Source: Krasilnikoviella flava (GTDB lineage Bacteria; Actinomycetota; Actinomycetes; Actinomycetales; Cellulomonadaceae). Taken from it: a stretch of 64,000 nucleotides of DNA. Shown one piece after another: positions 9,916 through 27,505 of this stretch (position 1 is its first letter; the number at the start of each line of letters is the position of its first letter). The DNA is taken from NCBI RefSeq assembly GCF_900167525.1, contig NZ_FUZQ01000002.1, positions 558,001 through 622,000 of the forward strand. The letters are read 5' to 3'. Under the pieces are notes generated by a model, which saw only the letters and a list, made by a program, of their open reading frames with translations, was not told the DNA's origin and searched no databases. The position numbers and the translations under genes are program-made.

Positions 9916-10911
9916 GTGACCCGAGAGACCCTCCCCTCCCTGTCGGCGCTCCCCGCGTGGCTCGTGCCGTCCGTGTACCTGAACTGGTCGGCCGACTGGC
10001 TGACGGAGTCCGTCGCGATCGCGACCCGCACGCCGGAGCACCGGCTGCCCGCGGGGCCGGACGGGCCGCAGCGCGGGGACGTGGTCGTGACGGTGCTCGG
10101 CGACGCCGGCGTGGTCGCCGCCGTCGAGCTCATGGGCGCGAGCGACGGCGAGAGCTGGGTGAGCGACGACCTCTTCGGCCCGGACCGGCCGATCGTGTGG
10201 GCAGACCTGTTCGAGGGCGCCGACACCTACACCGGCTCGTCGGGCTGGCTGCCGCCGGAGCACGCGCGGCTCGTGCTGGACGGCGTCGCCGAGCAGTTCC
10301 GGGGCGGCCCCGTGCACACCCTCGACCCGGGCGACTGCGGCGCCCGCGCCACCGCGCCCGACGTGCACGCCCTGCGCATCCTCGGCCATCGCGCCGTGAC
10401 CGGCTGGTCGATGCGCCGCGAGGAGCGCTGCGCCACCTGCGAGCGGTTCGTCGACGTGCACCGCATGCACGCCCACGACGACGGCGCCGTCCGCCTCGGC
10501 ACCACCACCGCCGGCGGCCGCACCCTGGAGCAGCTGGTGCGCGACGTGCACCTCCTGTGCGAGCAGTGCCACGACCTGCTGCACGCGCACACGGTGTCGT
10601 CGCAGCGCGCGCGGATGCGCCCCCAGTGCCCCGGCTGCGGCGCGCGCGGCAAGACCAAGCGGATCGTGTGGGGCATGACGTTCCAGGACGACGTGATGAA
10701 CGCCGAGCCGGACGTCGTCTACGGCGGCTTCGAGGTGCCGGTGCCGACGCCCGAGTGGTACTGCACCGAGTGCCACGCCAACTTCGCGAGCAGCGTCATC
10801 GCGTCGCGGGCGCTGACCTCCGCCGACACGGGCGGCAGCGCAGGGGTCGTGGCCGTGACGGGAGCCCTGTCGGTGGTGCCCGACCTGCCGGACGACGAGC
10901 CCGCCGCCTGA
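9916..10911 (+). CDS. Protein with four CxxC motifs, degenerate HNH-like centre
   Basis: A 331-aa protein I cannot place in a named family. Residues 1-165 are an acidic globular domain without recognised motifs. Four CxxC pairs follow: C172/C175, C215/C218 with H219 (LLCEQCHDLLH), C238/C241 (CPGCG), and C283/C286 (WYCTECH). The first two, with VHRMHAH between them, resemble the treble-clef zinc core of HNH nucleases; the last two look like a second zinc finger. The GTG start lies 6 nt after TATGTT (9904-9909), so the mRNA may be leaderless. It converges on a true HNH gene. Confidence 0.65.
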   Translation: MTRETLPSLSALPAWLVPSVYLNWSADWLTESVAIATRTPEHRLPAGPDGPQRGDVVVTVLGDAGVVAAVELMGASDGESWVSDDLFGPDRPIVWADLFEGADTYTGSSGWLPPEHARLVLDGVAEQFRGGPVHTLDPGDCGARATAPDVHALRILGHRAVTGWSMRREERCATCERFVDVHRMHAHDDGAVRLGTTTAGGRTLEQLVRDVHLLCEQCHDLLHAHTVSSQRARMRPQCPGCGARGKTKRIVWGMTFQDDVMNAEPDVVYGGFEVPVPTPEWYCTECHANFASSVIASRALTSADTGGSAGVVAVTGALSVVPDLPDDEPAA

Positions 10912-10926
10912 CACCCGTCGTGGTGG

Positions 10927-10958
10927 GGCCGCGGCCGACCTCGGGTCAGGCCGCGGCC
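10927..10958. terminator. Strong GC hairpin at the convergent end of two genes
   Basis: GGCCGCGGCC occurs at 10927-10936 and again at 10949-10958; being self-complementary the copies pair, and GACC/GGTC extends the stem inward to 14 pairs with one bulged base. It spans the stop codon of the HNH gene and lies 16 nt after the facing gene, so it probably ends both transcripts. Confidence 0.6.
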
Positions 10959-11425
10959 GTCGCCGTGGCGCGCCGTCGTCGGCGCACGAGACCGTGCTCG
11001 GCCGGGGGCACGAACGGGGCGAGCAGCAGCGGCATGCCCGCCTCGAGCGGCGTGCGGTCGGCCTTGAGTCCGTTGCACCGCTCGCACGCGGCGACGAGGT
11101 TCAGCCACGACGAGTCGCCGCCGCGCGAGCGGGGGATCACGTGGTCGACCGTCTCCGCGGGGCCGCCGCAGTACGCGCAGGCGCCGTCGCGGCGCTTGAC
11201 GCCGTCCTTGGTGACAGCGGGCCGGCCGGCGCTGCGGTAGCGCCAGCGCATCGCGACGTACCGCACCAGGCGGAGCACCCGCGGCATCGGGTAGGGGCCG
11301 AACCGATGGCCCTCCACCGCCTCCTCGACCACCGCGACCTCGCGGACCAGCATCGTGATGGCGTGCTTGACCGACACGCGGTGCAAGGGCTCGTAGCCCG
11401 CGTTGAGCACCAGGACGTCGGCCAC
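10946..11425 (-). CDS. HNH endonuclease-domain protein
   Basis: A 159-aa protein of the actinobacterial HNH type. After an N-terminal LVLNAGYEPLHRVSVKHAITML segment comes the complete zinc/HNH core: CAYCGGPAE, VDHVIPRSRGG, WLNLVAACERCNGLKADRTP. The conserved DH pair, the Asn and both CxxC pairs are all there, so nuclease activity is plausible. The GTG at 11425 is preceded by GGAGGGAGC. Such genes are very common and usually single; a role in repair or restriction is possible but not shown. Confidence 0.85.
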   Translation of the reverse strand: MADVLVLNAGYEPLHRVSVKHAITMLVREVAVVEEAVEGHRFGPYPMPRVLRLVRYVAMRWRYRSAGRPAVTKDGVKRRDGACAYCGGPAETVDHVIPRSRGGDSSWLNLVAACERCNGLKADRTPLEAGMPLLLAPFVPPAEHGLVRRRRRATATAAA

Positions 11426-11613
11426 GGCCCGCTCCCTCCTCGACCGGCGCGCACACCGTGTGAATCCGGTCACAGCATGCTGCCGAGGTGAAAGTATGCC
11501 GCCGAGGCGCGGAAGTCCAGGGCAAAGCCCGGTCGGGACGCCCGTCGGAGGCCGATGAGTCCGGTCCGCGCGCGCCGTCCACCCTGCGTCCACGACACCC
11601 GACGGAGGGCCAC

Positions 11614-12075
11614 ATGAGGCTCAGCGTCACCATCGTCACCTCGCTCGACGGGGTGGTGCAGGGACCGGACGGGCCCGAGGAGGACACCCGCGGCGGCTTC
11701 GCCGAGGGCGGCTGGTTCGTCCCGTTCACCGCCGGCACCACCGTCGTCCGCCCCGCCGACGAGGCCGACCTGGCCGCCGAGGTGCAGGCGCTCAAGGACG
11801 GTCCCGACGGCGAGCTGCAGGTGCACGGCAGCGCGCGACTCGCGAGCACCCTGCACGACCTGGGGCTCGTGGACGTCTGGCGCCTCGTCGTCGCGCCCGT
11901 GGTCGTCGGTTCCGGGGCGCGGCTGTTCGACGACGGCGCAGCGCCGTCCGGGTTCGCGGTCACGCGGTCGTGGCTCGGCGACACCGGGCTCGTGTTCCTG
12001 GAGCTCGAGCCTCGGCCCCTGCGGCACGGCGCCGCCGACGTCGTCGACGGCGCGCAGTCCGTGCGCGTCGACTGA
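11614..12075 (+). CDS. RibD C-terminal/dihydrofolate reductase-like protein with an internal deletion
   Basis: A 153-aa member of the DHFR-like (RibD_C) family. The start is normal (VTIVTSLDGVVQGPDGPEEDTRGGFAEGGW) and the end is normal (GELQVHGSARLASTLHDLGLVDVWRLVVAPVVVGSGARLF). Family members are about 190-200 aa because of a middle section with a GRRTYE-type cofactor motif; here FVPFT runs almost straight into the DLAAEVQALKDG helix, so some 40-60 residues seem missing in frame. Loss of the NADPH-binding part suggests it is not an active reductase. Confidence 0.7.
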   Translation: MRLSVTIVTSLDGVVQGPDGPEEDTRGGFAEGGWFVPFTAGTTVVRPADEADLAAEVQALKDGPDGELQVHGSARLASTLHDLGLVDVWRLVVAPVVVGSGARLFDDGAAPSGFAVTRSWLGDTGLVFLELEPRPLRHGAADVVDGAQSVRVD

Positions 12076-12823: not shown

Positions 12824-13105
12824 TCAGAACCGGGGCAGCCGCAGCAGGTTGTCGGTCTCCGTGCCGTTGGCAACCGTGGCGATGTACCGCGTGCCGCGGG
12901 AGCTCACCCTGGCCACGACGTCGGTCTGCACGTGGGTGACCGGGTGCAGGGCCCGGTAGCGGGTGCCGCGCACGATGTCGGTGTGCACGGCCTCGCGGCT
13001 CGAGACCCGGAGCGGGCCGGTGGTCAGGTCGGACACGGCGACGGCCTCGATGTGCTCGTTGTGCGTGCCGGGCTCGGCGACGCGGACGGAGTGGATGAAC
13101 GGCAT
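12824..13105 (-). CDS. DUF3892-like small protein
   Basis: A 93-aa basic protein matching the DUF3892 pattern: an N-terminal FIHSVRVAEPGTHNEHIEAVAV strand pair, then AVHTDIVRGTRYRALHPVTHVQTDVVARVSSRGTRYIATVANG. The family is small, widespread and uncharacterised. It is the first gene of a two-gene unit with the membrane protein, and GAGGAGCC precedes its ATG. Confidence 0.65.
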   Translation of the reverse strand: MPFIHSVRVAEPGTHNEHIEAVAVSDLTTGPLRVSSREAVHTDIVRGTRYRALHPVTHVQTDVVARVSSRGTRYIATVANGTETDNLLRLPRF

Positions 13106-13198
13106 GGTCGGCTCCTCGTGGACGGACTCGTGCTTGTCGGTGTGGTGGGGAGCGGCGGGCGCGTCGGGTCCGGACCTGTCACGCCCGCCGTGGGGGCC

Positions 13199-14074
13199 TC
13201 AACCCTTCGCGCGGAAGAAGACGGGGTCGGCGAACCAGCCCGCCGTCAGCGTCCAGGTGCCGGGGGCCCCGGCGGGGACGGCGACGCACACGTTCCCCTT
13301 GGCGGAGCCGCCCTCGTACAGCTCGTCGACGTCGGTGAGGTCGTCAGGGATGACGCCGCACGAGTCGGAGTAGGTGACGCTGTCGTCGCCGACGAACTCG
13401 ACCGTGAGGTCGACCCACGGTGTGCCGGTCTCGTCGCCCGTGTAGGTCGCCTCGACCGGGACGATCCAGTACTCCATGCCGTCGGCGGGCGCCTCGTTGA
13501 ACTGGTTCTCGGCGTGGATGTCCGCCCAGGCCTCGTGGGGCTTGCCGAGGTCGACGGTCCAGTCGTCGTTGCCGACGGTCTCGGCGAACGTGAACGGATT
13601 GTCGCGGGTGCCCTCCTCGGCCGCGGCCGGCTCGGGGTCGGCCGCGACGTCCTCGTCCGTGGTCGCCTGGTCCGCGACGTCCGCATCCGGCTCGGCCGGA
13701 GCATCCTCACCGGTAAGGGCGGGGGTGTCGTCGAGCGAGTCGGAGACGTCGTCGAGCACCGAGCTGTAGAAGGCCTGCGACGCCAGGACGGCGGCGCCGG
13801 CGACGACGGCCAGCACGATGCCCGCGACCGCCATGCCCTGTCGGGGCGCACCTCGACGGGCCTTCACCAGCCCGACGATCGCCAGCACCAGCCCTGCAAG
13901 GGCGAGCACGAACGCCCCGTTGTTGACGATGGGGATCAGGGACAGCAGCAGCGCGACCAGCGCGACGACGAAGCCGGCCACGGCGAGCCCGTTGCCGCGC
14001 GTCGGGGGAGGCGTGACGGGAACCGGGGGGGCGGGGTGCGGCTCGAAGGTCGGGCCGTTCGGGGTGGTGGACAT
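13199..14074 (-). CDS. DUF4190-type membrane-anchored protein with an extracellular domain
   Basis: A 291-aa protein. Residues 1-25 are a Pro-rich cytoplasmic start; two closely spaced hydrophobic helices follow (about 28-68 and 78-97, NGLAVAGFVVALVALLLSLIPIV ... GMAVAGIVLAVVAG), the pattern of DUF4190. An acidic, Ala/Asp-rich linker (about 110-150) leads to a beta-rich extracellular domain like DUF4352 (FAETVGNDDWTVDLGKP, WIVPVEATYTG). Such proteins sit on the outer face of the actinobacterial membrane. AAGGAG precedes the ATG at 14074. It is the last of three small membrane-anchored genes and may share their promoter. Confidence 0.7.
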   Translation of the reverse strand: MSTTPNGPTFEPHPAPPVPVTPPPTRGNGLAVAGFVVALVALLLSLIPIVNNGAFVLALAGLVLAIVGLVKARRGAPRQGMAVAGIVLAVVAGAAVLASQAFYSSVLDDVSDSLDDTPALTGEDAPAEPDADVADQATTDEDVAADPEPAAAEEGTRDNPFTFAETVGNDDWTVDLGKPHEAWADIHAENQFNEAPADGMEYWIVPVEATYTGDETGTPWVDLTVEFVGDDSVTYSDSCGVIPDDLTDVDELYEGGSAKGNVCVAVPAGAPGTWTLTAGWFADPVFFRAKG

Positions 14075-14127
14075 GGGAACTCCTTCGGTGGTGTCGGGTG
14101 AGTGCTGAGGTTGCGGCTGGTACGGGG

Positions 14128-14739
14128 TCACTGCTTGTCCCACGTGCCGCAGCGGTTCGTCTCGAAGTCCTGGCCGTCGCGCAGCGCGACCGTGGGTCGG
14201 CCTCCGGTGACGATGTCGTTCTGGACGATGTCGTCCTGGTTGGTGCCGGACCGGTAGATCGCCCAGTAGCAGTCGCCGGAGACAGGCTCGGTGGTCCGGT
14301 AGGTGCCGGCCTCGACGTCCGTGCCGACGGTCCAGACCCCCTCGTCGATGCGGTTGTTCTCGATCGTCTTCTCGGTCTTGCTGACGGCCTTCTCGCGCCC
14401 GGCGACGTCCTGCTCGCGCTCGTCCAGCCCGGACTCGCGCTCGTCGAGCTCGGCCTGCCGGGTCGCCGCCTCCGTCTCGGCGTCGTCGATCCGGCTCTCC
14501 GCCGTCTCGGCGCGTGCGACGGCGCCGTCGAGCTCCGTGCGCGTCGCGTCCAGCTCGGCGGCGGTGTCGGTGACCTGCGTCTGCGCGGTCCGGGCGTCGC
14601 GATCGCGGTCGGCGGCGACCACGGTCGCCCCCGTTGCGAACGCGCCCAGGAGCGCCGCTGCCGTGCCCAGCACGATCGGCGTGCGGTGGTCACGCACCCA
14701 TCGGGACGACGTCCGGGGTCGAGCGTCGGCGCCGCTCAC
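14128..14739 (-). CDS. Single-pass membrane protein with extracellular coiled coil
   Basis: A 203-aa protein: a basic cytoplasmic start, one membrane helix (about residues 22-44), then a coiled coil of roughly 85 residues rich in Glu, Ala, Asp and Arg (ELDATRTELDGAVARAETAESRIDDAE), and a compact C-terminal domain (GVWTVGTDVEAGTYRTTEPVSGDCYWAIYRSG ... CGTWDKQ). The end resembles domains seen in many actinobacterial secreted proteins with V..DI..GTYR signatures. The GTG start overlaps the previous stop by 4 nt (14736-14739). Confidence 0.65.
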   Translation of the reverse strand: MSGADARPRTSSRWVRDHRTPIVLGTAAALLGAFATGATVVAADRDRDARTAQTQVTDTAAELDATRTELDGAVARAETAESRIDDAETEAATRQAELDERESGLDEREQDVAGREKAVSKTEKTIENNRIDEGVWTVGTDVEAGTYRTTEPVSGDCYWAIYRSGTNQDDIVQNDIVTGGRPTVALRDGQDFETNRCGTWDKQ

Positions 14740-15269
14740 GTCTGGTCTCCCGTCGGATCGACCGTCAGGAGCAGGTCGAGCCCCGTGTCGGGGTGGTAGC
14801 CCCACGACGCGGTGATGCCGTCCCAGGAGTCGGTCTGCCTGCCGTCGAGCGCCCGCGTGGAGTACATGAGCTCCGTGACCCGGGCCGGGGTCTTGAGCGC
14901 GCTGAGGACACAGTCGACGGTCGTGTAGCTCGCGCCGGTGAGGTCGTCGTCGCCCTGGACGTCGAGCGCCAGGGTGGTGCCGTCGTCGACGAGCTCCATT
15001 CCGTCGCTGGGCCCGCAGCCGTCGAAGGCGGCCTCGAAGGCTGCCGCACCGGGCCCGGTGTCGGTCGCGTCGCCGGCGGGTGCCGGATCACCGAGTGACA
15101 GTGCGAGCGCCACGACGGACGCTCCCACCACCATCCCGCCGAGAGTCGCGGCGACGACCGTCCCGGGGCGGTATCGCCTGTCGTCCCTCGTCGGGTCGTC
15201 GTGCGGCGGGCCCTGCGGCGGAGGCGGGGCGGTGGCCACCCGGCCGTCGACCGGTGCGTCCTCGTTCAT
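14736..15269 (-). CDS. Hypothetical membrane-anchored extracellular protein
   Basis: A 177-aa protein with a Pro/Asp-rich cytoplasmic start, a single membrane helix at about residues 36-60 (GTVVAATLGGMVVGASVVALALSL) and an outer domain with two Cys (FDGCGPSDGMELVDDGTTLALD, TTVDCVLSALKTPARVTELMYST). The Cys pair probably forms a disulphide. No family was recognised, though the outer domain resembles many actinobacterial proteins of unknown function. GAGGAGCC lies before the ATG. It heads the three-gene set that ends at 13199. Confidence 0.6.
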   Translation of the reverse strand: MNEDAPVDGRVATAPPPPQGPPHDDPTRDDRRYRPGTVVAATLGGMVVGASVVALALSLGDPAPAGDATDTGPGAAAFEAAFDGCGPSDGMELVDDGTTLALDVQGDDDLTGASYTTVDCVLSALKTPARVTELMYSTRALDGRQTDSWDGITASWGYHPDTGLDLLLTVDPTGDQT

Positions 15270-15365: not shown

Positions 15366-15381
15366 GATAAAGCCTCTTATC
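15366..15381. promoter_or_regulatory. Inverted repeat in the promoter region of the restriction-modification operon
   Basis: GATAA (15366-15370) and TTATC (15377-15381) form a small AT-rich dyad in otherwise GC-rich DNA, just upstream of the promoter. It could be the site of the helix-turn-helix domain of the first operon gene; that is inference. Confidence 0.35.
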
Positions 15382-15445: not shown

Positions 15446-17551
15446 ATGGACTCGACACCGCTGCGACCGGCACGGACGGCCGAGGCCGGGCTGCACGACC
15501 TGACGTTGTCCCTGCCGGACATCGCGCTCACGGCCGGCGTGCAGCGACCGGTGGTGTCCATGTGGCGTACGCGCCACGCCGCCGGCCCGAATCCGTTCCC
15601 TGCCCCCGTCGTGGACAGCGCAGGCTCGCCGCGTTTCCGTGCGTCGGAGGTCGTCGCATGGGTGGAGCGCACCGGCCTGGGGAAGAACATCGACTTCGCC
15701 GCCGACGTCGCGGTACGCGGCGTGCTCGACGCCCGTCCGGGGGGCGGCCGCCCCACCGACGGTCTCCTCGCGCTGCTGTGCCTGCGCGCGTACGCATCGG
15801 CGGTGCTCGCGGACCTCGCCCCCGGCGACGTGCTCGACCTGGCCGACGAGCTCGACCCCGACGACGAGTTCCTCTACCGGGAGGTGGCGGCGCTCGGGGC
15901 AGACCTCCCGGCCGTGTGCGAGCTCGCGGACCTCATGGCGTCTGCCGCATACTCGCCAGGCCGCGCCGCGGAGGCCGTGCTCGCGGACCGCTACCGCGCC
16001 GGCCGTGCGGACCTCACTCGGTCGGCGCTCGCGCCGGCAGCGCTCGACCTGGTCGCGCGGGTGGTGGAGGTGGTGGCGCCGGCGGACGTCGTGGCGAGCC
16101 CGGCGCCCGGGTGCGGCGACCTGCTGCATGCCGTCCTCGCCACGCCCGACGCCGTCGACGTCCCGACAGCGCTGGTGCCGCTGGGGGAGGGGCGCAGGCT
16201 CGCGCGACGCCGCCTGGTCGCGCACGGTTGGGACGTCCGGACGCTGGAGGACGGCGACCTGCCGACCGAGGCGGTCGTCGTCCGCCAGGTGCCGGAGGTC
16301 GGCGTCGGCGACGTGTCGGACGAGGAGGCGCTGGCCCGGGTCGACGAGGTCGTGCTGTCGCTGGGTCCGGGGCAGCGGGCGGTGGTGATCGGCCCGGCGA
16401 GCGCGCTCGTGGAGGCGGCGTCGAGCCCGGCGGTGGAGTCTGCGCGCTCGGCGCTGCTGCGCACGCACCGCCTGCGCACGGCGGTGCTGCTGCCGCCGGG
16501 GCTCGTCGTCGGCCGGTCGCGGCAGCGCCTCGCGCTGTGGGTGCTCGGCGATGCGCACCCCGACGTCGCGATCGGGGACCGGTGGACGATGGTCGCGGAC
16601 CTCTCGGACGCCACCGTCAACGGCCCGACCTTCGACAGGGCAATGCTCGACGACCTGCTCACCGACGTCGTCGCCTCCCTCGACAGCGCGGATTCCGTGC
16701 GCGCGCACGCGTTCCGGTTCGCCCGCTTCGTCAGGCTCCCGGAGGTGCTCGCGCGCGGCGGCTCGCTGATCGAGTCGGGACGAGGCCTGGCGCAGGTGCC
16801 GCGCGACGACCGCGGTGCGGCGGCGGTGCGCGTCCGCGAGCTCGCGGAGCTGCTCGACGGCGAGGGCCGGCGCCCCCTCGACGTCACCGTGCGACGGGGC
16901 GCGGCGCAGCCGCTGCATGAGGCCCTGCTGGGCACCCTTGCCGACGACGGGAGGGTGCGCAGACTGCCCGGAGTCCGCCTCGCGGAGTCGATGGTCGTGC
17001 CGGCGCCGGAGAGGGATCCGGCACTGACCCGCGTGCTGGGCCCGGACGAGCTGCTCGGTGCCGTCCCGTGGGGCACGCGGGCCGTCGACCGGATGCGCCT
17101 GGCCGCCGAGCACCCTGGTGCGCGGCTCACCGAGCCGGGCGACGTCGTCGTCACGACCACGCCCCGTCCCGCGGCCGAGGTGGACCGTGACGGCTTCTCC
17201 GCCGTCGTGTACCCGGCGTGGGTTCTGCGCGTCGTCGACCCCGATGGTCCCGGGGACACCCCCCGCCTACTGTCCGATGTCGTGGCCCGCGAGATCGCCG
17301 CCCAGCCCTCGGGTGCCAAGCGGTGGCGGTCGTGGCGGGTGCGGATGCTGCCGGCGGACCAGGCGGACGACGTCGAACGTGCGCTTCGTGCCGTCGCTGA
17401 CCGTGCCGCTGCCGCCCGCCGCGAGCTCGACCGTTTGGAGGAGCTCGCCGGGGCGTTGGTCGACGGCGTCGCGGTCGGCGTCGTCAAGATCGTCCCTGGC
17501 GAGGTCGACGACGGCGTCAGTGCCGCAGGACAAGATGAGGCCATCGAATGA
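15446..17551 (+). CDS. HTH-methylase-like-HsdS-like composite protein, first gene of the type I RM operon
   Basis: A 701-aa protein. About residues 22-80 look like a MerR/excisionase-type DNA-binding unit (SLPDIALTAGVQRPVVSMWRTRH, RFRASEVVAWVERTG). Residues 80-190 are helical, as in the N-domain of HsdM. Residues 190-410 follow the N6-adenine methylase fold order, ending in AVLLPPGLVVGRSRQRLALWVL, but the SAM motif is SPAPGCGDLL (218-227) instead of DPACGSG, and where an NPPY/F motif belongs (about 276-288) there is VVVRQVPEVGVGD. The end (about 560-701) resembles an HsdS segment with a terminal helix ELDRLEELAGALVDG. Its stop overlaps the hsdM start (ATGA). It is probably not a methylase itself; a specificity, scaffold or regulatory role is inferred. 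Confidence 0.65.
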   Translation: MDSTPLRPARTAEAGLHDLTLSLPDIALTAGVQRPVVSMWRTRHAAGPNPFPAPVVDSAGSPRFRASEVVAWVERTGLGKNIDFAADVAVRGVLDARPGGGRPTDGLLALLCLRAYASAVLADLAPGDVLDLADELDPDDEFLYREVAALGADLPAVCELADLMASAAYSPGRAAEAVLADRYRAGRADLTRSALAPAALDLVARVVEVVAPADVVASPAPGCGDLLHAVLATPDAVDVPTALVPLGEGRRLARRRLVAHGWDVRTLEDGDLPTEAVVVRQVPEVGVGDVSDEEALARVDEVVLSLGPGQRAVVIGPASALVEAASSPAVESARSALLRTHRLRTAVLLPPGLVVGRSRQRLALWVLGDAHPDVAIGDRWTMVADLSDATVNGPTFDRAMLDDLLTDVVASLDSADSVRAHAFRFARFVRLPEVLARGGSLIESGRGLAQVPRDDRGAAAVRVRELAELLDGEGRRPLDVTVRRGAAQPLHEALLGTLADDGRVRRLPGVRLAESMVVPAPERDPALTRVLGPDELLGAVPWGTRAVDRMRLAAEHPGARLTEPGDVVVTTTPRPAAEVDRDGFSAVVYPAWVLRVVDPDGPGDTPRLLSDVVAREIAAQPSGAKRWRSWRVRMLPADQADDVERALRAVADRAAAARRELDRLEELAGALVDGVAVGVVKIVPGEVDDGVSAAGQDEAIE

Positions 17552-19227
17552 GGAAGGACAACCGAGTGCCCCCGAGGACCAAGGCGGCCATGCCGTCGGT
17601 CGCCACGGCGACCACCATGAAGGATCTGAAGGACACGCTCTGGAAGGCCGCGGACAAGCTGCGCGGCTCGATGGACGCGAGCCAGTACAAGGACGTGATC
17701 CTGGGGCTGGTGTTCCTGAAGTACGTGTCGGACGCGTTCGAGGAGCGCCGGGAGGCGATCCTCGCGGAGTGCGTGGCTGACGGGCTCAGCGAGAACGACG
17801 CCGCGCCGCTGCTGGAGGACATCGACGAGTACCGACGTGCCGGCGCGTTCTGGGTGCCGGAGCGGGCGCGGTGGGGCTACCTGGCGCGCAACGCCAAGGG
17901 CCGCGTCGCGACGGTCGACGAACCGGAGGCGTCGGTCGGCCAGCTCGTGGACGACGCGATGGCGCACCTCATGGGGGCGAACCCGCCGCTGGCGGGCACG
18001 CTGCCGACGATCTTCAACTCGATCAGCGTGGACCAGCGGCGCCTGGGCGAGCTGGTGGACCTGTTCTCCTCGGCCAGGTTCACGGGCGTGATGGCGGACG
18101 GCACCAAGGTGTCCAAGGCACGCGACGTGCTGGGTGAGGTGTACGAGTACTTCCTGGAGAAGTTCGCCCGCGCCGAGGGCAAGCGCGGCGGCGAGTTCTT
18201 CACGCCGCCCTCCGTGGTGCGCGTGCTCGTCGAGGTGCTCGAGCCGTACCGCGGGCGCGTGTACGACCCGGCATGCGGGTCCGGCGGCATGTTCGTGCAG
18301 GCGGAAAAGTTCCTCGAGAGCCACGGCGCCGACCCGCAGGCCATCAGCGTGTACGGGCAGGAGCTCAACCAGCGCACCTGGCAGCTGGCGCGCATGAACC
18401 TGGCGATCCACGGCCTGTCCGGGCAGCTCGGCCCGCGCTGGGGCGACACCTTCGCGCGCGACCTGCACCCGGACGTGCCGATGGACTACGTGATGTCGAA
18501 CCCGCCGTTCAACATCAAGGACTGGGCGCGCAGCACCGACGACGCGCGCTGGAAGTACGGCGTGCCGCCCGCGGGGAACGCCAACTACGCGTGGATCCAG
18601 CACATCCTGTCCAAGCTGGCGCCCACCGGGTCCGCGGGCGTGGTCATGGCGAACGGGTCGATGAGCTCGAACTCCGGGGGAGAGGGCGAGATTCGCGCCC
18701 AGCTCGTCGAGGCCGACCTGGTGAGCTGCATGGTGGCGCTGCCGACGCAGCTCTTCCGGTCCACGGGGATCCCCGTGTGCGTGTGGTTCGTCGCGAAGGA
18801 CAAGGGCGCGCGCGCCGGCGAGGTGCTGTTCATCGACGCGCGGAACATGGGCCACATGGTCGACCGTGCCGAGCGCGCGCTGTCCGACGAGGACATCGCC
18901 AAGATCGCGAGCACGTACCACGCGTGGAAGCGCACCCCGTCGCAGGTTGAGCTTGTCGAAACCCTGTCGCTGGTTGAGCCTGTCGAAACCGAGACCACCT
19001 ACGCCGACATCCCCGGCTTCTGCTACTCCGCGACGCTCGCAGAGATCAAGAACGCTGGCTATGCGCTGACGCCCGGTCGGTACGTAGGCGCCGCCGAGGC
19101 GGAGGACGACGGCGAGCCGGTGGAGGAGAAGATCGCGCGGCTCACCAAGGAACTATTCGAGCAGTTCGACGAGTCCGCGCGGCTGGAGAAGGTCGTGCGC
19201 GAGCAGTTGGAGCGGGTCCGTGCGTGA
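17548..19227 (+). CDS. hsdM: Type I restriction-modification methyltransferase subunit HsdM
   Basis: A 559-aa N6-adenine DNA methyltransferase. The helical N-domain (LWKAADKLRGSMDASQYKDVILGLVFLKYVSDAF) is followed by the SAM motif D240-PACGSGG and the catalytic N318-PPF. LPTQLFRSTGIPVCVWFVAKDK and the MGHMVDRAERALSDEDI end are typical. Two copies of a genomic repeat lie in frame at about residues 466-482, adding VELVETLSLVEPVET to a surface linker before the C-terminal part. The start overlaps the upstream stop by 4 nt, and its stop lies inside the hsdS start region (8-nt overlap). It would methylate DNA with HsdS and take part in the HsdR complex. Confidence 0.95.
   Translation: MRKDNRVPPRTKAAMPSVATATTMKDLKDTLWKAADKLRGSMDASQYKDVILGLVFLKYVSDAFEERREAILAECVADGLSENDAAPLLEDIDEYRRAGAFWVPERARWGYLARNAKGRVATVDEPEASVGQLVDDAMAHLMGANPPLAGTLPTIFNSISVDQRRLGELVDLFSSARFTGVMADGTKVSKARDVLGEVYEYFLEKFARAEGKRGGEFFTPPSVVRVLVEVLEPYRGRVYDPACGSGGMFVQAEKFLESHGADPQAISVYGQELNQRTWQLARMNLAIHGLSGQLGPRWGDTFARDLHPDVPMDYVMSNPPFNIKDWARSTDDARWKYGVPPAGNANYAWIQHILSKLAPTGSAGVVMANGSMSSNSGGEGEIRAQLVEADLVSCMVALPTQLFRSTGIPVCVWFVAKDKGARAGEVLFIDARNMGHMVDRAERALSDEDIAKIASTYHAWKRTPSQVELVETLSLVEPVETETTYADIPGFCYSATLAEIKNAGYALTPGRYVGAAEAEDDGEPVEEKIARLTKELFEQFDESARLEKVVREQLERVRA
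18945..18990 (+). repeat. Two direct copies of the GGTTGAGC..GTCGAAACC element inside hsdM
   Basis: Copies at 18945-18963 (GGTTGAGCTTGTCGAAACC) and 18972-18990 (GGTTGAGCCTGTCGAAACC), 8 nt between them. Elsewhere in the window the element occurs in inverted pairs between genes; here the copies are direct, in frame and free of stops in the reading frame used. Confidence 0.85.
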
Positions 19228-20380
19228 GTGGAGTGAGACAAGTTTCGGGCACCTCGGCGAGATATTCGACGGGCCGCACGCGACACCTACCCGTCGAAGC
19301 GTCGGACCATACTTCCTCAACATCTCGAGTCTTCAGAATGGTCGCCTAAACCTCAGCGAGTCAGACCATGTGTCCCCTGAAGATTTTGCGATGTGGACCA
19401 GGCGCGTGACGCCGGTGGAAGGAGATCTTCTCTTCTCATATGAGACTCGCCTTGGCGATGCCGCACTCATGCCGGGCGGCGTGCAAGCGTGCCTTGGTCG
19501 CCGGATGGCACTGCTTCGCCCGGACCGCGAGGTGGCCGACCCTCGGTATCTCCTCTATATGTACCTCGGCCCCCAGTTTCAGCGGACCATCGAGCAGAAC
19601 ACGATTCACGGTGCGACCGTTGAGCGGATCTCGCTGAAGACGATGGGTTCGTGGCCGGTACGTCTCCCCGACTTACGGGAACAGCGCGCGATCGCCGAGG
19701 TCCTGGGCGCCCTCGACGACAAGATCGCGGCCAATGCCCGCCTCGCCGCGACTGCTGACGAACTCGTCGGCGAGCTCTACCAGCGAGCCCTCGAAGCGGG
19801 CGATTGTCGGACCGGCTGGTTCTTTGACTTCTTCACCGTTGCGTTCGGCTCCGCCTTTAAAGGTGAGTTCTTTTCCGATCGTGGAGCGGGCCGGCCGCTC
19901 ATCCGGATTCGCGATCTCAAGACCTTTTCGCCACAGGTGTGGACCAGCGAAACTCGCGCCGACGAGACGATCGTCAGGCCCGGCGACGTCGTCGTCGGGA
20001 TGGACGCGGACTTTACGCCGACACCGTGGCTCGGGAGCGAGGGACTGTTGAACCAGCGGGTCTGTGTCGTGTCGTCGGCGCACTCGCGAGCGTTCACTCT
20101 CGAAGCTATCCGTGGGCCGATCGCGTTCATTGAGGGGCACAAGTCCGGGACCACGGTGATCCATCTGAACAAGAGCGATCTTACCGAGACACGGGTTGTG
20201 ATCCCGGGCGAGGCGGCCGCTCGCCGGTTCGATGCCGAGGCTCAGGGCGTGCTCGACACTCGGGTGAACGCAGCGGCCGAAGCGGGCCGGCTCGCATTGC
20301 TGCGCGACGCCCTGCTCCCGCAGCTCATGTCGGGCAGTCTGCGTGTCCGTAAGGCTCGGGAGGTCGTGGATGCCCTATGA
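19220..20380 (+). CDS. hsdS: Type I restriction-modification specificity subunit HsdS
   Basis: A 386-aa DNA-recognition subunit with the two-half layout: a first target-recognition domain (about residues 1-150), a conserved helix (LPDLREQRAIAEVLGALDDKIAANARLAATADELVGELYQRAL), a second recognition domain (about 205-330) and a second helix (AAEAGRLALLRDALLPQLMSGSLRV). It directs HsdM and HsdR to one bipartite target. The sequence, above all its first third, is visibly less GC-rich than its neighbours (ATATTCG, GATCTTCTCTTCTCATATGAGAC), as expected for exchanged recognition modules. It starts at GTG within the hsdM end and overlaps the next gene by 11 nt. Confidence 0.92.
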   Translation: MREWSETSFGHLGEIFDGPHATPTRRSVGPYFLNISSLQNGRLNLSESDHVSPEDFAMWTRRVTPVEGDLLFSYETRLGDAALMPGGVQACLGRRMALLRPDREVADPRYLLYMYLGPQFQRTIEQNTIHGATVERISLKTMGSWPVRLPDLREQRAIAEVLGALDDKIAANARLAATADELVGELYQRALEAGDCRTGWFFDFFTVAFGSAFKGEFFSDRGAGRPLIRIRDLKTFSPQVWTSETRADETIVRPGDVVVGMDADFTPTPWLGSEGLLNQRVCVVSSAHSRAFTLEAIRGPIAFIEGHKSGTTVIHLNKSDLTETRVVIPGEAAARRFDAEAQGVLDTRVNAAAEAGRLALLRDALLPQLMSGSLRVRKAREVVDAL

Positions 20381-21308
20381 GCTCGCGGATCGGCTCGTCG
20401 TTGGTGTCGCGTCGAGCGCGCTGTTCGACCTGGCGGAGTCGGACGCCGTCTTCCGAGCGCAGGGAGAGGAGGCGTACCGGCTCCATCAGGAGGCGCACAT
20501 CGATGACACTCTGAAGCCGGGGGTGGCGTTTCCGTTCCTCCAACGGCTCCTTGCACTGAATGACCTGAGGCCGGATGACGCGCTCGTCGAGGTCATCGTG
20601 CTGTCGAAGAACGACCCGTCGACGGGGCTGCGCGTGATGCGGTCGATCGCCACGCACGGGCTGGCGATCACGCGGTCGGTATTCACCCAGGGGAAGGCCC
20701 CGTACGACTACATCCCGGCGCTGGACATGTCGCTGTTCCTGTCCGGAGACCCGGCCGACGTCCGTGCGGCGGTCGACTTGGACCTCCCAGCGGGACAGGT
20801 GCTCAGCTCGTCGGCGGCGACCGAGGACGACGGACACGAGCTGAGGATCGCCTTCGACTTCGACGGCGTCCTCGCGGCGGACGACTCGGAGCGCATCTAC
20901 CAGGGCGGGGGCATCGAGAAGTTCCGGGAGTACGAGCAGCAGCATCAGGCGATCCCGCTGAATCCTGGACCGCTCAGCGGATTCCTCCGGGACGTCAACC
21001 GCATCCAGGCGGTCGAGTCACAGGTGCGCGACGCGGACCCGACCTACCAGCCTAGGCTCCGGGTCTCGATCGTCACGGCCCGGAATGCACCGGCCCACGA
21101 GCGGGCGGTGCGGACGCTCCAGCAGTGGGGCGTGACCGTCAACGACGCGTTCTTCCTCGGCGGCATCGACAAGGGGCGGATCCTCGAGGTCATGCGTCCG
21201 CACATCTTCTTCGATGACCAGGAGGCGCATCTGCTCTCGACGGCGGCCTTCGCGCCGAGCGTGCACGTCCCGTACGGGGTGACGAACCAGGCGTCCGACG
21301 TCAGCTGA
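20370..21308 (+). CDS. Cytosolic 5'-nucleotidase-like protein (cN-I/PF06189 type) in the hsd operon
   Basis: A 312-aa protein like the 5'-nucleotidase family that includes cytosolic nucleotidase cN-I. The phosphatase loop IAFDFDGVLAADDSERIY holds the paired Asp of HAD enzymes; SIVTARNAPAHERAVRTLQQWGV and FLGGIDKGRILEVMRPHIFFDDQ supply the later motifs, including the final Asp pair. It would dephosphorylate nucleoside monophosphates. The ATG at 20370 has GGGAGGT before it and overlaps hsdS by 11 nt, so it is a true operon member. It also overlaps the convergent Abi gene by 8 nt. A defence role such as nucleotide depletion is inference from location. Confidence 0.82.
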   Translation: MPYELADRLVVGVASSALFDLAESDAVFRAQGEEAYRLHQEAHIDDTLKPGVAFPFLQRLLALNDLRPDDALVEVIVLSKNDPSTGLRVMRSIATHGLAITRSVFTQGKAPYDYIPALDMSLFLSGDPADVRAAVDLDLPAGQVLSSSAATEDDGHELRIAFDFDGVLAADDSERIYQGGGIEKFREYEQQHQAIPLNPGPLSGFLRDVNRIQAVESQVRDADPTYQPRLRVSIVTARNAPAHERAVRTLQQWGVTVNDAFFLGGIDKGRILEVMRPHIFFDDQEAHLLSTAAFAPSVHVPYGVTNQASDVS

Positions 21309-22284
21309 GCAGCGTCGTCCAGGCAATCGGCGCGCCTAGGTCACCGAGGGTCACGACGTCGTCGGCCGGAAAAGTGTCGAGGTGTTCGCGGAGACGACGG
21401 TTCCACGTCGACGTCGGATCGATTGCCCGCATCAGGTGGGACGTGACCGCGAGGATCGGATAGACACGGCCCAGGCTGCGGGCGTCAAACTTCGCGAGAT
21501 AACGGAGCCTGTCGATGTGTCCGAGGCGCTTCGTGCTGATCTGTTCGACGAAATTGCGGTTCCACAGTCGTGCGTGATGTGCACAGGTGTTGCGCGCGAT
21601 GTTCAGCGATTGCAACCAGTTCCCGAGGATGCGACCGTCGCCGCGCCCCTCGGCGTCGAGCAGGCCGAGGCGCGCAGCGACGGTGTCGCGATCAGCCCGT
21701 CGAGCCCCGTGGAAGAGGATCGACATCGAGCCGAAGTCGAGCACCTCGACAGCGACCCAGATGGGGATGTCGCCGTCGTACTTGTCCTGGAAGTGCTTGA
21801 CGAAGTCCTCGGAAGAGCGGCCGAGGTGTTCCTCGTACTTTGCGAGCCACCGGGCGTGGCCCGACGGTTCATCGGGCCGGGAGGGCTTGGGCCGGGTGAA
21901 TCGTCCGTCGAGGTGCGCAGCCTCGCGGTACGCATACGCCGAGTGCTTGCCGAGTACGTACGCGAGCTCGACCCGGACGGCGACCTCGACGCGTTCCAGT
22001 GCGTCCATGAGCAGAAGCTTGAGCCGGCGGTCGAAATCGTAGAGGCGGAGGACCTGGTCGAGCGTGGTCCCTGCGCGCACCTCGCTCCTGCGGACGGCGT
22101 GACCTGATGATTCGGACGCATCGTCGTCGATGATCCGGTACGGGTACCAGTAGCCGCTCAGTCGGTAGTAGCCGATCCGTTCCACCGCCCAGAGGCAGGT
22201 AGCCATGTCGGCTTCGATGCCGCGTTCGAGGAGGAGGCGCGCCTGCTCGTCGAAGGACCGGTAAGGCTTGCTGTAGGTGACCAT
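21301..22284 (-). CDS. Abi_2 family (AbiD/AbiF-type) HEPN abortive-infection protein
   Basis: A 327-aa protein. Early segment AVERIGYYRLSGYWYPYRI (about residues 33-51) and late segment NIARNTCAHHARLWNRNF are the two hallmarks of Abi_2/AbiF proteins. The late one contains the HEPN ribonuclease pattern: R231 followed by H236 (RNTCAH). It therefore probably cleaves RNA and stops growth upon phage infection. A separate promoter and a leader hairpin precede it, suggesting control by its own 5' RNA. It lies in the type I RM island, on the opposite strand, convergent with the nucleotidase. The ATG at 22284 has GGAGGGCG. Confidence 0.88.
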   Translation of the reverse strand: MVTYSKPYRSFDEQARLLLERGIEADMATCLWAVERIGYYRLSGYWYPYRIIDDDASESSGHAVRRSEVRAGTTLDQVLRLYDFDRRLKLLLMDALERVEVAVRVELAYVLGKHSAYAYREAAHLDGRFTRPKPSRPDEPSGHARWLAKYEEHLGRSSEDFVKHFQDKYDGDIPIWVAVEVLDFGSMSILFHGARRADRDTVAARLGLLDAEGRGDGRILGNWLQSLNIARNTCAHHARLWNRNFVEQISTKRLGHIDRLRYLAKFDARSLGRVYPILAVTSHLMRAIDPTSTWNRRLREHLDTFPADDVVTLGDLGAPIAWTTLLS

Positions 22285-22304
22285 CGCCCTCCTACAAATG
22301 AAGA

Positions 22305-22350
22305 CCAGCCCGTGCCCGACCGAGGTCGGGCAGAGGGGCTGGCCGTGATG
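22305..22350 (-). ncRNA. Structured leader or small RNA upstream of the Abi_2 gene
   Basis: A long hairpin: inner arms 22313-22321 and 22324-22332 (9 pairs), outer arms 22305-22311 and 22336-22342 (7 pairs), with a 1x3 internal loop. A transcript from the TTGACA/TACAGT promoter would begin about 22350 and fold at once; on the minus strand the stem is followed by TCTTCATTT, so it may also act as a terminator or attenuator. This resembles RNA-antitoxin plus HEPN-toxin layouts. The fold is visible; its role is inferred. Confidence 0.5.
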
Positions 22351-22356
22351 AGAGTT

Positions 22357-22387
22357 ACTGTACCTGGGCCCGCCGACGGAGTGTCAA
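22357..22387 (-). promoter_or_regulatory. Promoter of the Abi_2 gene/leader RNA
   Basis: On the minus strand, consensus TTGACA (22387-22382) is followed after 19 nt by TACAGT (22362-22357). A 9-nt inverted repeat (ACCTGGGCC at 22362-22370, GGCCCAGGT at 22431-22439) brackets the promoter and reaches the hipA stop codon. Confidence 0.6.
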
Positions 22388-22438
22388 GGTGCTTGTACTG
22401 TTCGAGGGCAAGGCGACATCGAGGGCTGACGGCCCAGG

Positions 22439-24011: not shown

Positions 24012-24205
24012 CATCTGACACAGGCGCCGACCGACTGATGTGGCCGTCGCGCAGGTGGAGCAATGCAGCTGCGACCACACAGCCTGGAGAACCGACGACT
24101 TGATAAGGGTGATTACCGGCCGAAACTGCTGCTTAGGTCCGCTGGTTCGGCCACGATGGGTGCCGAGGACGACAGCCACGACCACCCGACCAGCACGGAG
24201 GACCA

Positions 24206-27200
24206 ATGCGACCGCACGAGGCCGACTGGGAGCAGCTCGCGCTCGACCACCTGGCCGAGCCGCTCGGCTGGCAGCCCCTGCGCGGGCAGCAGATCGTTCC
24301 CGGCGCGCTCTCGGACCTCGGGCATGCCAGCTACACGGCGCTCGGCGAGCAGCCGCAGCGCGAGGCGTGGTCCGAGCTCGCGATCCCGTCCCGGATGCGT
24401 GCTGCCGCGCGCCGCCTCAACCCCGACGTGCCGCGCGAGTACCTGGAGCAGGCGCTCGCGGAGATCCTCAGGCCGACGTCGCAGGACGCGATCACCGAGA
24501 ACAAGCGGATCCATGACGTCCTCGTCCAGGGCTACCGAATCGCGTACGTCGAGGACGGGCGTGAGCAGACCGCGACGGTGCGCCTCGTCTCGGCGCACGA
24601 GCACGAGAACGAGTGGCTCGCCGTCAACCAGGTCACCGTGGTCGACGGAGATGTCGAGCGACGCTTCGACGTCGTCCTCTACCTCAACGGGATGCCCGTG
24701 GTGATCGTCGAGCTGAAGAACGCAGGCTCGCCGCATGCCGACGTCGCCGCCGCGCACGCGCAGCTCACCACCTACGTCCGCGAGCTGCCGATGGCGTTCC
24801 GCTTCTGCGTGCTCACCGTCATCAGCGACGGCGTCGTCGCCAAGTACGGCACCCCGTTCACCCCGCTCAACCACTACGCGCCGTGGAACGTGGACGACGA
24901 CGGTCGGGTGGTCGGCCCTGACGGACGCCCGGAGGGCGACCGGCCGTTGCACCTGGTGCACGACGACGGGCTGCTCGGCGAGGTGGCGGCGCGCACGCCC
25001 CTGGAGGTCACCCTCGACGGCCTGTTCAACCCGGAACGCTTCGGTCAGCTGCTGCGGGGCTTCGTCGCCTTCGACGCGGACGAGGACGGGCTGCACAAGC
25101 GGGTCGCCAAGCCGCACCAGTACTTCGCCGTCACCAAGGCGGTCGCCGCGACCGCCGAGGCGGTCCGCGGGGACGGCAGGGCCGGCGTCGTGTGGCATAC
25201 GCAGGGCTCCGGGAAGTCGATGGAGATGGAGCTCTACGCCGCGGCGATCGGGCGGCATCCCGCGCTGGAGAACCCGACGATCGTCGTCATCACCGACCGC
25301 ACGGACCTGGACGACCAGCTCTTCCAGACGTTCGCCCGCTCCCAGCTGCTCGCCGAGCAGCCGCGCCAGGTCACGCGCCGCAGCGAGCTGCGCAGCGAGC
25401 TCGCGAACCGTGCCACCGGCGGTATCTACTTCACGACGCTGCAGAAGTTCGGGCTCACCGCCGAGGAGAAGCGCGCGGGCCGCAAGCACCCCGTGCTCTC
25501 CGAGCGGCGCAACGTCGTCCTCGTCGTCGACGAGGCGCACCGCAGCCACTACGACGACCTCGACGGCTACGCGTGGCACCTCAAGAACGCGCTGCCGAAC
25601 GCGACCCTGATCGCGTTCACCGGGACGCCGGTCACCGGCGAGCGGGACACGGAGGCCGTGTTCGGCGACGTCATCGACGTCTACGACCTCACCCGCGCGG
25701 TCGCCGACGGCGCGACGGTCCCGGTCTACTTCGAGTCGCGACTCGTCAAGGTCGCGTTCCCCGACGACGTCGACCCGGGCACGATCGACACCGCCGCGGA
25801 CGAGGCGACCGTCGGCCTCGACGACGCCGAGCGCGCCCGCATCGAGAAGTCGGTGGCCGTCGTCAACGCCGTCTACGGCGCCCCCGCCCGCCTGAAGACC
25901 CTGGCGGACGACCTGGTATCGCACTGGGAGCAGCGCAGGGACGCGGTCGCCGAGCTCGTGCGCCCGGCGACCGGAGCGCGAGTCGCGGCCGGCGGAGCCC
26001 CCGGCAAGGCGCTCGTCGTCGCCGGCACCCGGGAGATCTGCGCCCGGCTCTACGAGCAGATCGTGGCGCTGCGGCCCGAGTGGCACTCGGACGACGTCAC
26101 CCGCGGCAGGGTCAAGGTCGTGTACTCCGGCGACGCCGGGGACCAGCCGCCGATCGCCGACCACGTGCGACGCGACGGCGAGAACACCCTGATCAAGAAC
26201 CGGCTCAAGGACCCCGACGACGAGCTCGAGATCGTCATCGTCAAGGACATGCTCCTGACCGGGTTCGACGCCCCGCCGCTCCACACCCTGTATCTCGACC
26301 GACCGCTCCGCGGCGCACTGCTCATGCAGACCCTGGCGCGCGTGAACCGGACGTTCCGCGGCAAGGACGCCGGTCTGCTGGTCGCCTACGCTCCCGTCGC
26401 GGAGAACCTCGCGGCGGCGCTCGCGCAGTACACGGTGCGGGACCAGGCGGAGAAGCCCGTCGGGACACCGCTCGCGGAGGTCGCCGCCGCCACGCGCGAG
26501 CTCGTCCTGGCGCTGCGAGAGCTAGTCGAGCCCACCGGCTGGCGCACGCGACTCCGTGAGGCGGGGTCCGGCGGCCGTGCCTACATCGGCGTCGTGCTCG
26601 ATGTCGTGAGCTGGCTCCGCAGCCCGCGCACGCCGCAGAACCGTGTGCCTGCCGATTCCGACGCGGAGCCTGTCGGTGACACCTTCCGCCGTCGAGCACA
26701 GGCGCTCTCGCGTGCCTGGTCGGCGTCGGGTCGGCACGACTCGCTCGCCGACCTCGCGGACGAGGCGCGCTTCTACGAGGAGGTGCGGGTCTGGATGGGC
26801 AAGCTCGACGCCGAGGAGCGGCAGGCCAGTGGCCAGCCCATCCCCGAGGACGTGCAGCGCCTGCTCAACCAGTTGACGGCGACGTCGGTCGACGCGCGCG
26901 ACGTCGTCGACGTCTACGACGCGGCCGGCCTGGAGAGCCCCCGGCTCGACCAGCTCGACGGCGACTTCCTGGCGAAGGCCAAGGAGGCACCCCACCCGCA
27001 GATCACGATCGAGGCGCTGCGCGCCCTCGTCGTCGCCGAGGCCCGCGCCGCCACGGCCGGGAACCTGGTGCGGCGGCAGGCGTTCTCGGAGCGGCTGTCA
27101 CAGCTCATGCTCAAGTACACGAACGCGAACCTCACCTCGGCGGAGGTGATCGCGGCGCTCGTCGAGATGGCACGCGAGGTCGTGGCCGAGTCCGAGCGGG

Positions 27201-27505
27201 GGGCGAGGTTCGACCCGCCGCTCGGGCGCGACGAGCTCGCCGTCTACGACGCGGTCGCGCAGAACGAGTCCGCCGCACTGCTGCAGGGTGACGACAAGCT
27301 CGCGGAGATCGCGCGCGAGCTGATCGTGGTGCTCCGTCGCGACGTCAAGACCGACTGGACCGTGCGCGACGACGTGAAGGCGAAGTTGCGCTCGTCGATC
27401 AAGCGCCTGCTCATCAAGCACAAGTACCCGCCGGACCAGCAGCCCGAGGCCATCCGTCTCGTCATGGCACAGATGGAGGCCATGGCCCCGAGGTACGCGG
27501 CATGA
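24206..27505 (+). CDS. hsdR: Type I restriction endonuclease subunit HsdR
   Basis: A 1099-aa motor/nuclease subunit. The N-terminal PD-(D/E)xK nuclease shows D155 (RRFDVVLYLNG) and E169-x-K171 (VIVELKN). The translocase has Walker A HTQGSGKS with K337, ITDRTDLDDQLF, DEAH at 442-445 (VVDEAHRSHYDDL), and FTGTP; the second RecA domain includes GFDAPPLHTLYLDRP and QTLARVNRTF. The C-terminal helical part binds the methylase. All motifs look active. GGAGG lies before the ATG. It has its own upstream gap (268 nt) and is separated from hsdMS by the nucleotidase, Abi and hipBA genes; its stop overlaps an ATG (ATGA). Confidence 0.95.
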   Translation: MRPHEADWEQLALDHLAEPLGWQPLRGQQIVPGALSDLGHASYTALGEQPQREAWSELAIPSRMRAAARRLNPDVPREYLEQALAEILRPTSQDAITENKRIHDVLVQGYRIAYVEDGREQTATVRLVSAHEHENEWLAVNQVTVVDGDVERRFDVVLYLNGMPVVIVELKNAGSPHADVAAAHAQLTTYVRELPMAFRFCVLTVISDGVVAKYGTPFTPLNHYAPWNVDDDGRVVGPDGRPEGDRPLHLVHDDGLLGEVAARTPLEVTLDGLFNPERFGQLLRGFVAFDADEDGLHKRVAKPHQYFAVTKAVAATAEAVRGDGRAGVVWHTQGSGKSMEMELYAAAIGRHPALENPTIVVITDRTDLDDQLFQTFARSQLLAEQPRQVTRRSELRSELANRATGGIYFTTLQKFGLTAEEKRAGRKHPVLSERRNVVLVVDEAHRSHYDDLDGYAWHLKNALPNATLIAFTGTPVTGERDTEAVFGDVIDVYDLTRAVADGATVPVYFESRLVKVAFPDDVDPGTIDTAADEATVGLDDAERARIEKSVAVVNAVYGAPARLKTLADDLVSHWEQRRDAVAELVRPATGARVAAGGAPGKALVVAGTREICARLYEQIVALRPEWHSDDVTRGRVKVVYSGDAGDQPPIADHVRRDGENTLIKNRLKDPDDELEIVIVKDMLLTGFDAPPLHTLYLDRPLRGALLMQTLARVNRTFRGKDAGLLVAYAPVAENLAAALAQYTVRDQAEKPVGTPLAEVAAATRELVLALRELVEPTGWRTRLREAGSGGRAYIGVVLDVVSWLRSPRTPQNRVPADSDAEPVGDTFRRRAQALSRAWSASGRHDSLADLADEARFYEEVRVWMGKLDAEERQASGQPIPEDVQRLLNQLTATSVDARDVVDVYDAAGLESPRLDQLDGDFLAKAKEAPHPQITIEALRALVVAEARAATAGNLVRRQAFSERLSQLMLKYTNANLTSAEVIAALVEMAREVVAESERGARFDPPLGRDELAVYDAVAQNESAALLQGDDKLAEIARELIVVLRRDVKTDWTVRDDVKAKLRSSIKRLLIKHKYPPDQQPEAIRLVMAQMEAMAPRYAA

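Follow-up and report, generated by a model that had tools for sequence, protein, structure and literature searches.

The type I restriction-modification (RM) operon of Krasilnikoviella flava, as found in a window of 64,000 nucleotides (nt) that was analysed at its full length (assembly GCF_900167525.1, contig NZ_FUZQ01000002.1, positions 558,001 to 622,000, forward strand; window coordinates are used below), starts with a gene for a chimeric protein, in which a helix-turn-helix (HTH) domain precedes an HsdM-like body without the catalytic motif and an end that resembles one half of HsdS. Comparison of this gene with its relatives suggests that in many soil actinobacteria the type I operon starts with such a fusion of a dead methylase and a DNA-binding domain, acting as a defence switch. 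More specifically, we consider it probable (roughly 0.78) that the chimera is a transcription factor dedicated to the type I island in which it is encoded, and that it would read the palindrome GATAA-N6-TTATC and thereby auto-activate the operon. This reading is based on sequence comparison, i.e. on the architecture of the protein, the loss of the catalytic motif, the operator, the fixed spacing between operator and promoter, and the covariation of HTH and operator. The features concerned are:

15366..15381, no strand: operator dyad GATAA-AGCCTC-TTATC, 5' of the chimera gene; sole exact copy in the genome
15418..15423, plus strand: -10-like box TACCCT, 36 nt past the dyad
15446..17551, plus strand: gene of the putative chimeric regulator, 701 amino acids (aa); HTH, dead HsdM and half HsdS
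15497..15685, plus strand: HTH domain, residues 18-80; recognition helix at residues 34-43
15686..16876, plus strand: HsdM-fold body without NPPF, residues 81-477
16877..17515, plus strand: half-HsdS, residues 478-690, i.e. one target-recognition domain (TRD) and a conserved-region helix (637-677); hhalign E-value 2.9e-7
17566..19227, plus strand: hsdM, with DPACGSG and NPPF intact; GTG 17566 is the probable start, the open frame runs from ATG 17548
19220..20380, plus strand: hsdS

Predicted operator dyad and promoter spacing

Records kept from a pattern-limited genome scan, which was not confined to the phylum, provided 80 loci; the kept records bear names that we take to be actinobacterial, as far as these were recognised. 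One of the sets derived from them (A2) comprised 70 of the 80 loci, redundant ones having been filtered out. The first-pass annotation, made from the letters of the window alone, had pointed to a GATAA/TTATC dyad in the promoter that would suit autoregulation, and a dyad kept this widely agrees with such a role: GATAA-N6-TTATC stands 5' of the chimera gene as an exact copy in 73 of the 80 loci and with at most one mismatch in 78. The dyad was discovered in the same 80 loci that were used for counting; independent tests come from the genomes of the genus, from hsdM loci without the gene and from 15 additional loci, where some genomes recur under other handles. Within the genus (18 genomes) each of the six genomes with the gene has one exact dyad, always before the gene, and no exact dyad was found in the other 12, in all of which the gene was unmatched as well (two assemblies being 74-86% complete). 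Likewise, the 12 regions upstream of hsdM in loci without an intact gene (ten without the gene, two with a remnant) have no site at one mismatch or less, and the 15 additional loci have the dyad at that threshold in ten cases and a variant dyad in five. The 4.85-Mb genome of the window has four sites at one mismatch or less, two of them being those at 15366 and 24102, and the ten exact dyads that occur elsewhere in the 80 loci (1.55 million positions) all lie within the islands: eight before an ATPase gene in Streptomyces, one before a split hsdR (L041) and one further upstream of the chimera gene (L102). Among the 65 loci with a visible hsdR start, a dyad (two mismatches or less) precedes hsdR in 8 of the 29 in which hsdR lies more than 900 base pairs (bp) from hsdS, and in none of the 36 in which it is adjacent.

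The distance from the dyad to the promoter is fixed within narrow limits. Of 79 promoters (the window and 78 loci, excluding L093 and L099 with their changed dyads), 74 have a TANNNT that starts 31-36 nt past the dyad, compared to a mean of 3.5 and a maximum of 9 over 500 shuffled sets. L093 and L099 have TANNNT at 34 nt despite their changed dyads, the 14 extra dyad copies have it at 33 or 34 nt, and 14 of the 15 additional loci have it at 32-36 nt; the hsdR dyads of the window and of L031 are followed by only a degenerate -10 box.

Architecture of the chimera and its tie to hsdM

The composite nature that had been proposed at first pass, namely an HTH, a dead HsdM and an HsdS-like end encoded next to hsdM, is confirmed by fold, profile alignment, motif loss and loci. 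The top Foldseek match of the modelled chimera is 7eew (E-value 2.4e-13, residues 87 to 687 aligned, root-mean-square deviation (rmsd) 23), and the structure-match rows (VIA) cover mainly residues 81-662. By hhalign the body is collinear with HsdM at E-values of 0.013 and 0.0078, but with low probabilities (3 and 5), and a PDB profile search matched HsdM weakly (2okc, E-value 0.016); we nevertheless accept the HsdM fold, as predicted by the model, because the structure comparison settled the weak hhalign result. The half-HsdS part aligns to HsdS 5-193 with a probability of 93 and an E-value of 2.9e-7 (controls: 0.82 against HsdR, 0.087 against HsdM), and each chain has one TRD-like region (478-690) versus the two TRDs of a full HsdS. 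The single protein had no meaningful match when searched against Pfam, NCBIfam, PADLOC and, by sequence, the PDB: PADLOC, its control-protein models included, left the chimera unmatched at E-values up to 1, Pfam Methylase_S was unmatched by the family, and Pfam N6_Mtase was unmatched by the window's chimera and reached by 1 of 21 family members at an E-value of 0.044, short of the cut-off. Of the family's 70 conserved columns the methylase body holds 23, the TRD 17 and the HTH 16.

hsdM lies downstream on the same strand in 79 of the 80 scan loci, mostly within about 60 bp, so that homologues are found beside hsdM and not away from it. The 'ATGA coupling' of the two genes claimed in the first-pass annotation was close in spirit, in that the tie to hsdM stands; the detail probably does not, the likely start of hsdM being GTG 17566. 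In Mumia quercus (L077, gene 9983-12034) the chimera gene and its dyad occur without an adjoining hsdM, and a search of that genome, made without a positive control, gave no HsdM match.

Seen from hsdM, the association is looser. Among 30 hsdM loci of the family, taken from a longer list, the gene is present in 25 of 25 at 64% identity or more and in none of five at 53-58%, a count that suggested a strict coupling; this was corrected by a class-wide sample of 29 related hsdM loci, of which 14 have the gene, two a C-terminal remnant and 13 none. Absence was judged in eight of the 13 with the upstream DNA extended (L186-L190, L192, L195, L197) and in the remaining five (L176, L177, L179, L181, L182) on about 1-1.5 kb. 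The remnants (L185 3982-4323; L191 3456-3809, in reversed orientation) consist of the C-terminal helix region only, directly before hsdM and without a dyad. A quick tree built from 70 hsdM rows (direction of change not inferred) requires 7 changes for the chimera gene against 17.7 when shuffled, which fits an early gain followed by several losses; the gene thus goes with an hsdM clade and was probably lost several times. Outside the order it is sparse, since among 296 genomes of the phylum a profile search found seven matches, of which only the window's own was full-length. In one group of gene-less hsdM loci (L187-L190, L194) the N-terminal part of HsdM is short of about 42-60 profile positions, in the stretch from about 50-55 to 97-115, which may have been the contact face for the partner now lost.

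The distribution bears on a rather unlikely alternative, in which the chimera is mainly structural, its half-S and dead M joining HsdM (and HsdS) to serve as a further arm, a decoy or an aid to assembly while the HTH contributes DNA contacts or side regulation. Because 13 of the 29 class-wide loci have no chimera, the RM enzyme can presumably work without it, which disfavours an essential subunit; the two loci with only a remnant, and Mumia with gene and dyad but no HsdM match in that uncontrolled search, likewise argue against a structural role.

Probable activation and DNA reading by the chimera, and loss of catalysis

Promoter layout favours activation by the chimera, which we consider likely. 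No -35 box stands out: TTGACA at two mismatches or less occurs in 11 of the 67 non-redundant promoters tested (out of the 74) against 7.7 of 67 when shuffled. In addition, a mirror-image -10 lies at 33-34 nt on the opposite side of the dyad in 37 of 79 promoters, compared to a mean of 4.3 and a maximum of 12 when shuffled, and the minus strand carries genes of a divergent cassette (see below) in 35 of these 37 loci, against 18 of the 36 others with sufficient upstream DNA; together, mirror -10 and divergent genes form the pattern expected of a symmetric activator between two promoters. An autorepressor, whose dimer 5' of the -10 would silence the island until titrated away, has precedents among the known regulators ahead of type I hsd operons, for instance RptR, which represses according to the excerpted text of PMC12255303, and Mycoplasma HsdC, which binds the promoter of its own operon (PMC5282649, in excerpt) and 'appears to repress' as worded in an excerpted review (PMC12707154). 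Here, however, the dyad does not cover the promoter but is placed 5' of the -35 region, its distance to the -10 is fixed, and there is no clear -35; this makes repression unlikely.

The likely reader of the dyad is the HTH of the chimera, as indicated by loci in which dyad and recognition helix have changed together. All five loci with an RQAV helix have another dyad that is altered in both halves, namely GTTAA-N6-TTAAC with helix SRQAVSMW (L198, L200) and GTTTA-N6-TAAAC with helix TRQAVTNW (L210, L211, L212), and L099, with a KPAV helix, has GTTAT-N6-ATAAC. Between L198/L200 and three GATAA relatives there are 16 fixed differences, which in the HTH comprise only residues 33 and 36 and in the TRD one in 108 columns; it is their placement, i.e. 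at the recognition helix, that is telling. The comparison also disfavours an option that was seriously weighed and that we now hold to be quite improbable, namely that the half-S TRD reads the dyad in the way half-HsdS dimers read GAA-N7-TTC. The 5+6+5 geometry does resemble a symmetric bipartite type I target, and EcoR124INT provides a precedent (PMC3320862, in excerpt), in which half-HsdS dimers recognise a symmetric target; nevertheless, the switch from GATAA to GTTAA follows the residues of the recognition helix, and among nine rows compared L099, the dyad of which is changed, shows the largest number of private changes in the HTH (6/57, against 3/101 in the TRD), L093 being less clear (3/57 against 7/101). 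Among the roles considered at first pass, that of a controller of the operon is hence well supported, as far as sequences go, by the footprint, the fixed promoter geometry and the HTH-operator covariation.

The NPPY/F motif that had been reported missing in the window's protein is missing throughout the family: motif IV, by which the catalytic loop was checked at the sequence level, is found in 0 of 79 members (an alignment without L059 and L109, whose frames are short or broken as found; the L059 start was placed by hand), its position being filled by forms such as TQLPY, VTQVP and VAQYP. The DPxxGxG loop is retained in 10 of 79, and the neighbouring HsdM keeps its motifs in 77 of 77 rows. 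The view that the chimera is still an active methylase, only with unusual motifs, is rejected as extremely improbable, since the retained fold and the ten DPxxGxG loops stand against the absence of motif IV from all 79 rows and a profile likeness of body to HsdM of only E 0.0078.

Three further loci, possible active relatives of the regulator, have an HTH before an intact N6 methylase (L149, L150) or fused to a complete HsdM (L153); the chimera-family profile matches them at E-values of 4.6e-23, 2.9e-21 and 1.5e-13 in a comparison of three sequences. They share the order of HTH and methylase with the chimera and differ in keeping DPPA, DPPY or NPPF. Because there are thus relatives in which a similar HTH precedes an intact methylase or a whole HsdM, the loss of catalysis would on the simplest view be a derived state of the chimera family.

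A number of observations weigh against the chimera as an HTH-based auto-activator. As to the operator, 21 of the 29 loci with a distant hsdR have no hsdR dyad, that of the window has one mismatch and no TANNNT, and the gene-less loci L141 and L144 carry a one-mismatch site, though downstream of hsdM; Mumia, which is without hsdM, has the dyad but lacks a -10 at the expected spacing, and in L200 the -10-like box lies at 26 nt. As to the covariation, fixed changes are no more frequent in the HTH (2/57) than elsewhere (5/111, 5/245, 1/108, 3/79), the five RQAV loci form two groups of near relatives and so amount to about two independent observations, and the code of helix and dyad is not simple, since GATAA is kept in L201 (RQVV) and L083 (RPAV) and N39 is found with GATAA (L207) as well as with GGTAA (L093). 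As to the protein, DNA binding alone does not account for the conservation of the dead body. Finally, weak -35 boxes are common in actinobacterial promoters, so that a missing -35 is no proof of activation, which is why activation is called likely and not established.

Neighbouring genes, proposed mechanism and known systems

The remaining features of the island in the window are:

24102..24117, no strand: second operator copy GATAAGGGTGATTACC, one mismatch, 104 bp 5' of hsdR; one of four genomic sites at one mismatch or less
24152..24157, plus strand: degenerate -10-like CACGAT, 34 nt past the second dyad; weak, not TANNNT
24206..27505, plus strand: hsdR
14736..15269, minus strand: divergent cassette gene U1, 177 aa, exported or membrane-anchored look by eye; in 17 of 80 loci, divergent within 4 kb
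14128..14805, minus strand: divergent cassette gene U2, coiled coil, exported look by eye; in 34 of 80 loci
13199..14143, minus strand: divergent cassette gene U3, DUF4190-like match below the cut-off; in 14 of 80 loci
12824..13105, minus strand: divergent cassette gene U4, DUF3892; in 13 of 80 loci

The divergent cassette (12824-15269, minus strand), with its small exported- or membrane-looking proteins U1-U4, recurs in 53 of the 73 loci with sufficient upstream DNA. The interval between hsdS and hsdR (20343-23937) holds a 5'-nucleotidase-family gene (PADLOC candidate PDC-S08), which begins inside the last part of hsdS, together with an AbiD-like gene and, on the minus strand, a HipA/HipB pair; this cargo differs or is missing in other loci. 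In eight Streptomyces loci (L092, L094, L096, L097, L100, L103, L105, L106) a second dyad, exact and followed by a -10 at 34 nt, stands before a gene for an SMC/AAA-type ATPase downstream of hsdR, which tblastn found behind the dyad in 8 of 8 (e.g. L094 18753-21392). The ATPase is distantly similar to mad3 and LmuB, and in L093, L099 and L107 a relative is encoded divergently to the chimera gene instead.

In the mechanism that we propose, a presumed dimer of the chimera would contact GATAA-N6-TTATC through its HTH recognition helices, just 5' of the promoter at roughly -61 to -46 as estimated from the -10 box, and would most likely recruit RNA polymerase to a promoter with a -10 but without a recognisable -35. 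Its targets would be the operon of chimera, hsdM and hsdS, which would close an autogenous loop, hsdR if transcribed from a promoter of its own and, in numerous relatives, the divergent cassette. The dead body may act as a sensor by binding HsdM/HsdS or DNA. The simplest idea is that the dead M/half-S body binds HsdM, so that the regulator could gauge how much HsdM and HsdS is available, because type I complexes are anchored by a helix bundle between S and the tails of M (PMC9613975, in excerpt) and the chimera retains one HsdS-like helix. Bolder options are the sensing of unmethylated DNA or of DNA-mimic anti-restriction proteins. A wider, tentative notion, which we regard as doubtful, is that the dead body mimics the restriction enzyme as a signal input for free HsdM/HsdS, unmethylated targets or phage DNA mimics such as Ocr, which is bound in 7eew, and that the HTH would answer this input by switching on transcription across the entire island, with the divergent cassette and the Streptomyces ATPase gene among its targets.

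Several known systems share features with the chimera. The intact methylase 7eew (Vibrio vulnificus YJ016) likewise has a methylase body and a specificity part in one chain, but the match begins past the HTH of the chimera, which is without the catalytic motif, and the rmsd of 23 reflects another domain placement. SsoII/Ecl18kI-type methylases have, like the chimera, an N-terminal HTH and an inverted repeat in their own promoter, yet these are active methylases that repress themselves, while C proteins activate (PMC12707154, in excerpt); the chimera is by its sequence motifs a dead type I M/half-S. C proteins are small stand-alone Xre-type HTH proteins, in contrast to the 701 aa of the chimera, and act in autogenous activation from a site 5' of their own promoter; the chimera locus has a site and a promoter spacing that may serve such an activation. 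RptR (PMC12255303) and HsdC (PMC5282649) are, in the excerpted texts, dedicated regulators ahead of type I genes with a conserved site, as here; however, their sites (TAGCTA and GTGTTAN5 repeats) differ from the dyad, RptR is a small repressor, and neither is described in those excerpts as an enzyme chimera. PacII M1M2S, finally, also combines two distinct methylase-fold proteins in one system, but both M subunits carry catalytic motifs (NPPF, NPPY; PMC9613975, in excerpt). None of RptR, HsdC, the SsoII-type methylases, the C proteins and EcoR124INT is a dead M/half-S chimera, and searches confined to an open-access library turned up no description of this protein or of an activator of a type I system. 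We therefore file the chimera provisionally as an RM-encoded regulator and not as HsdM, HsdS, C protein, M1M2S or SsoII-type member, since each of these five classes differs from it in at least one tested feature.

For the widespread actinobacterial family described here an operator is predicted, the promoter geometry is given and a recognition code is hinted at, by which its regulation can be tested at once. If the mimicry were true, the restriction system would be guarded by its own decoy; and if the chimera is the regulator that we propose, a restriction enzyme minus its catalysis would have turned into a transcription factor that kept the shape of the enzyme, and what that shape senses would be the question.
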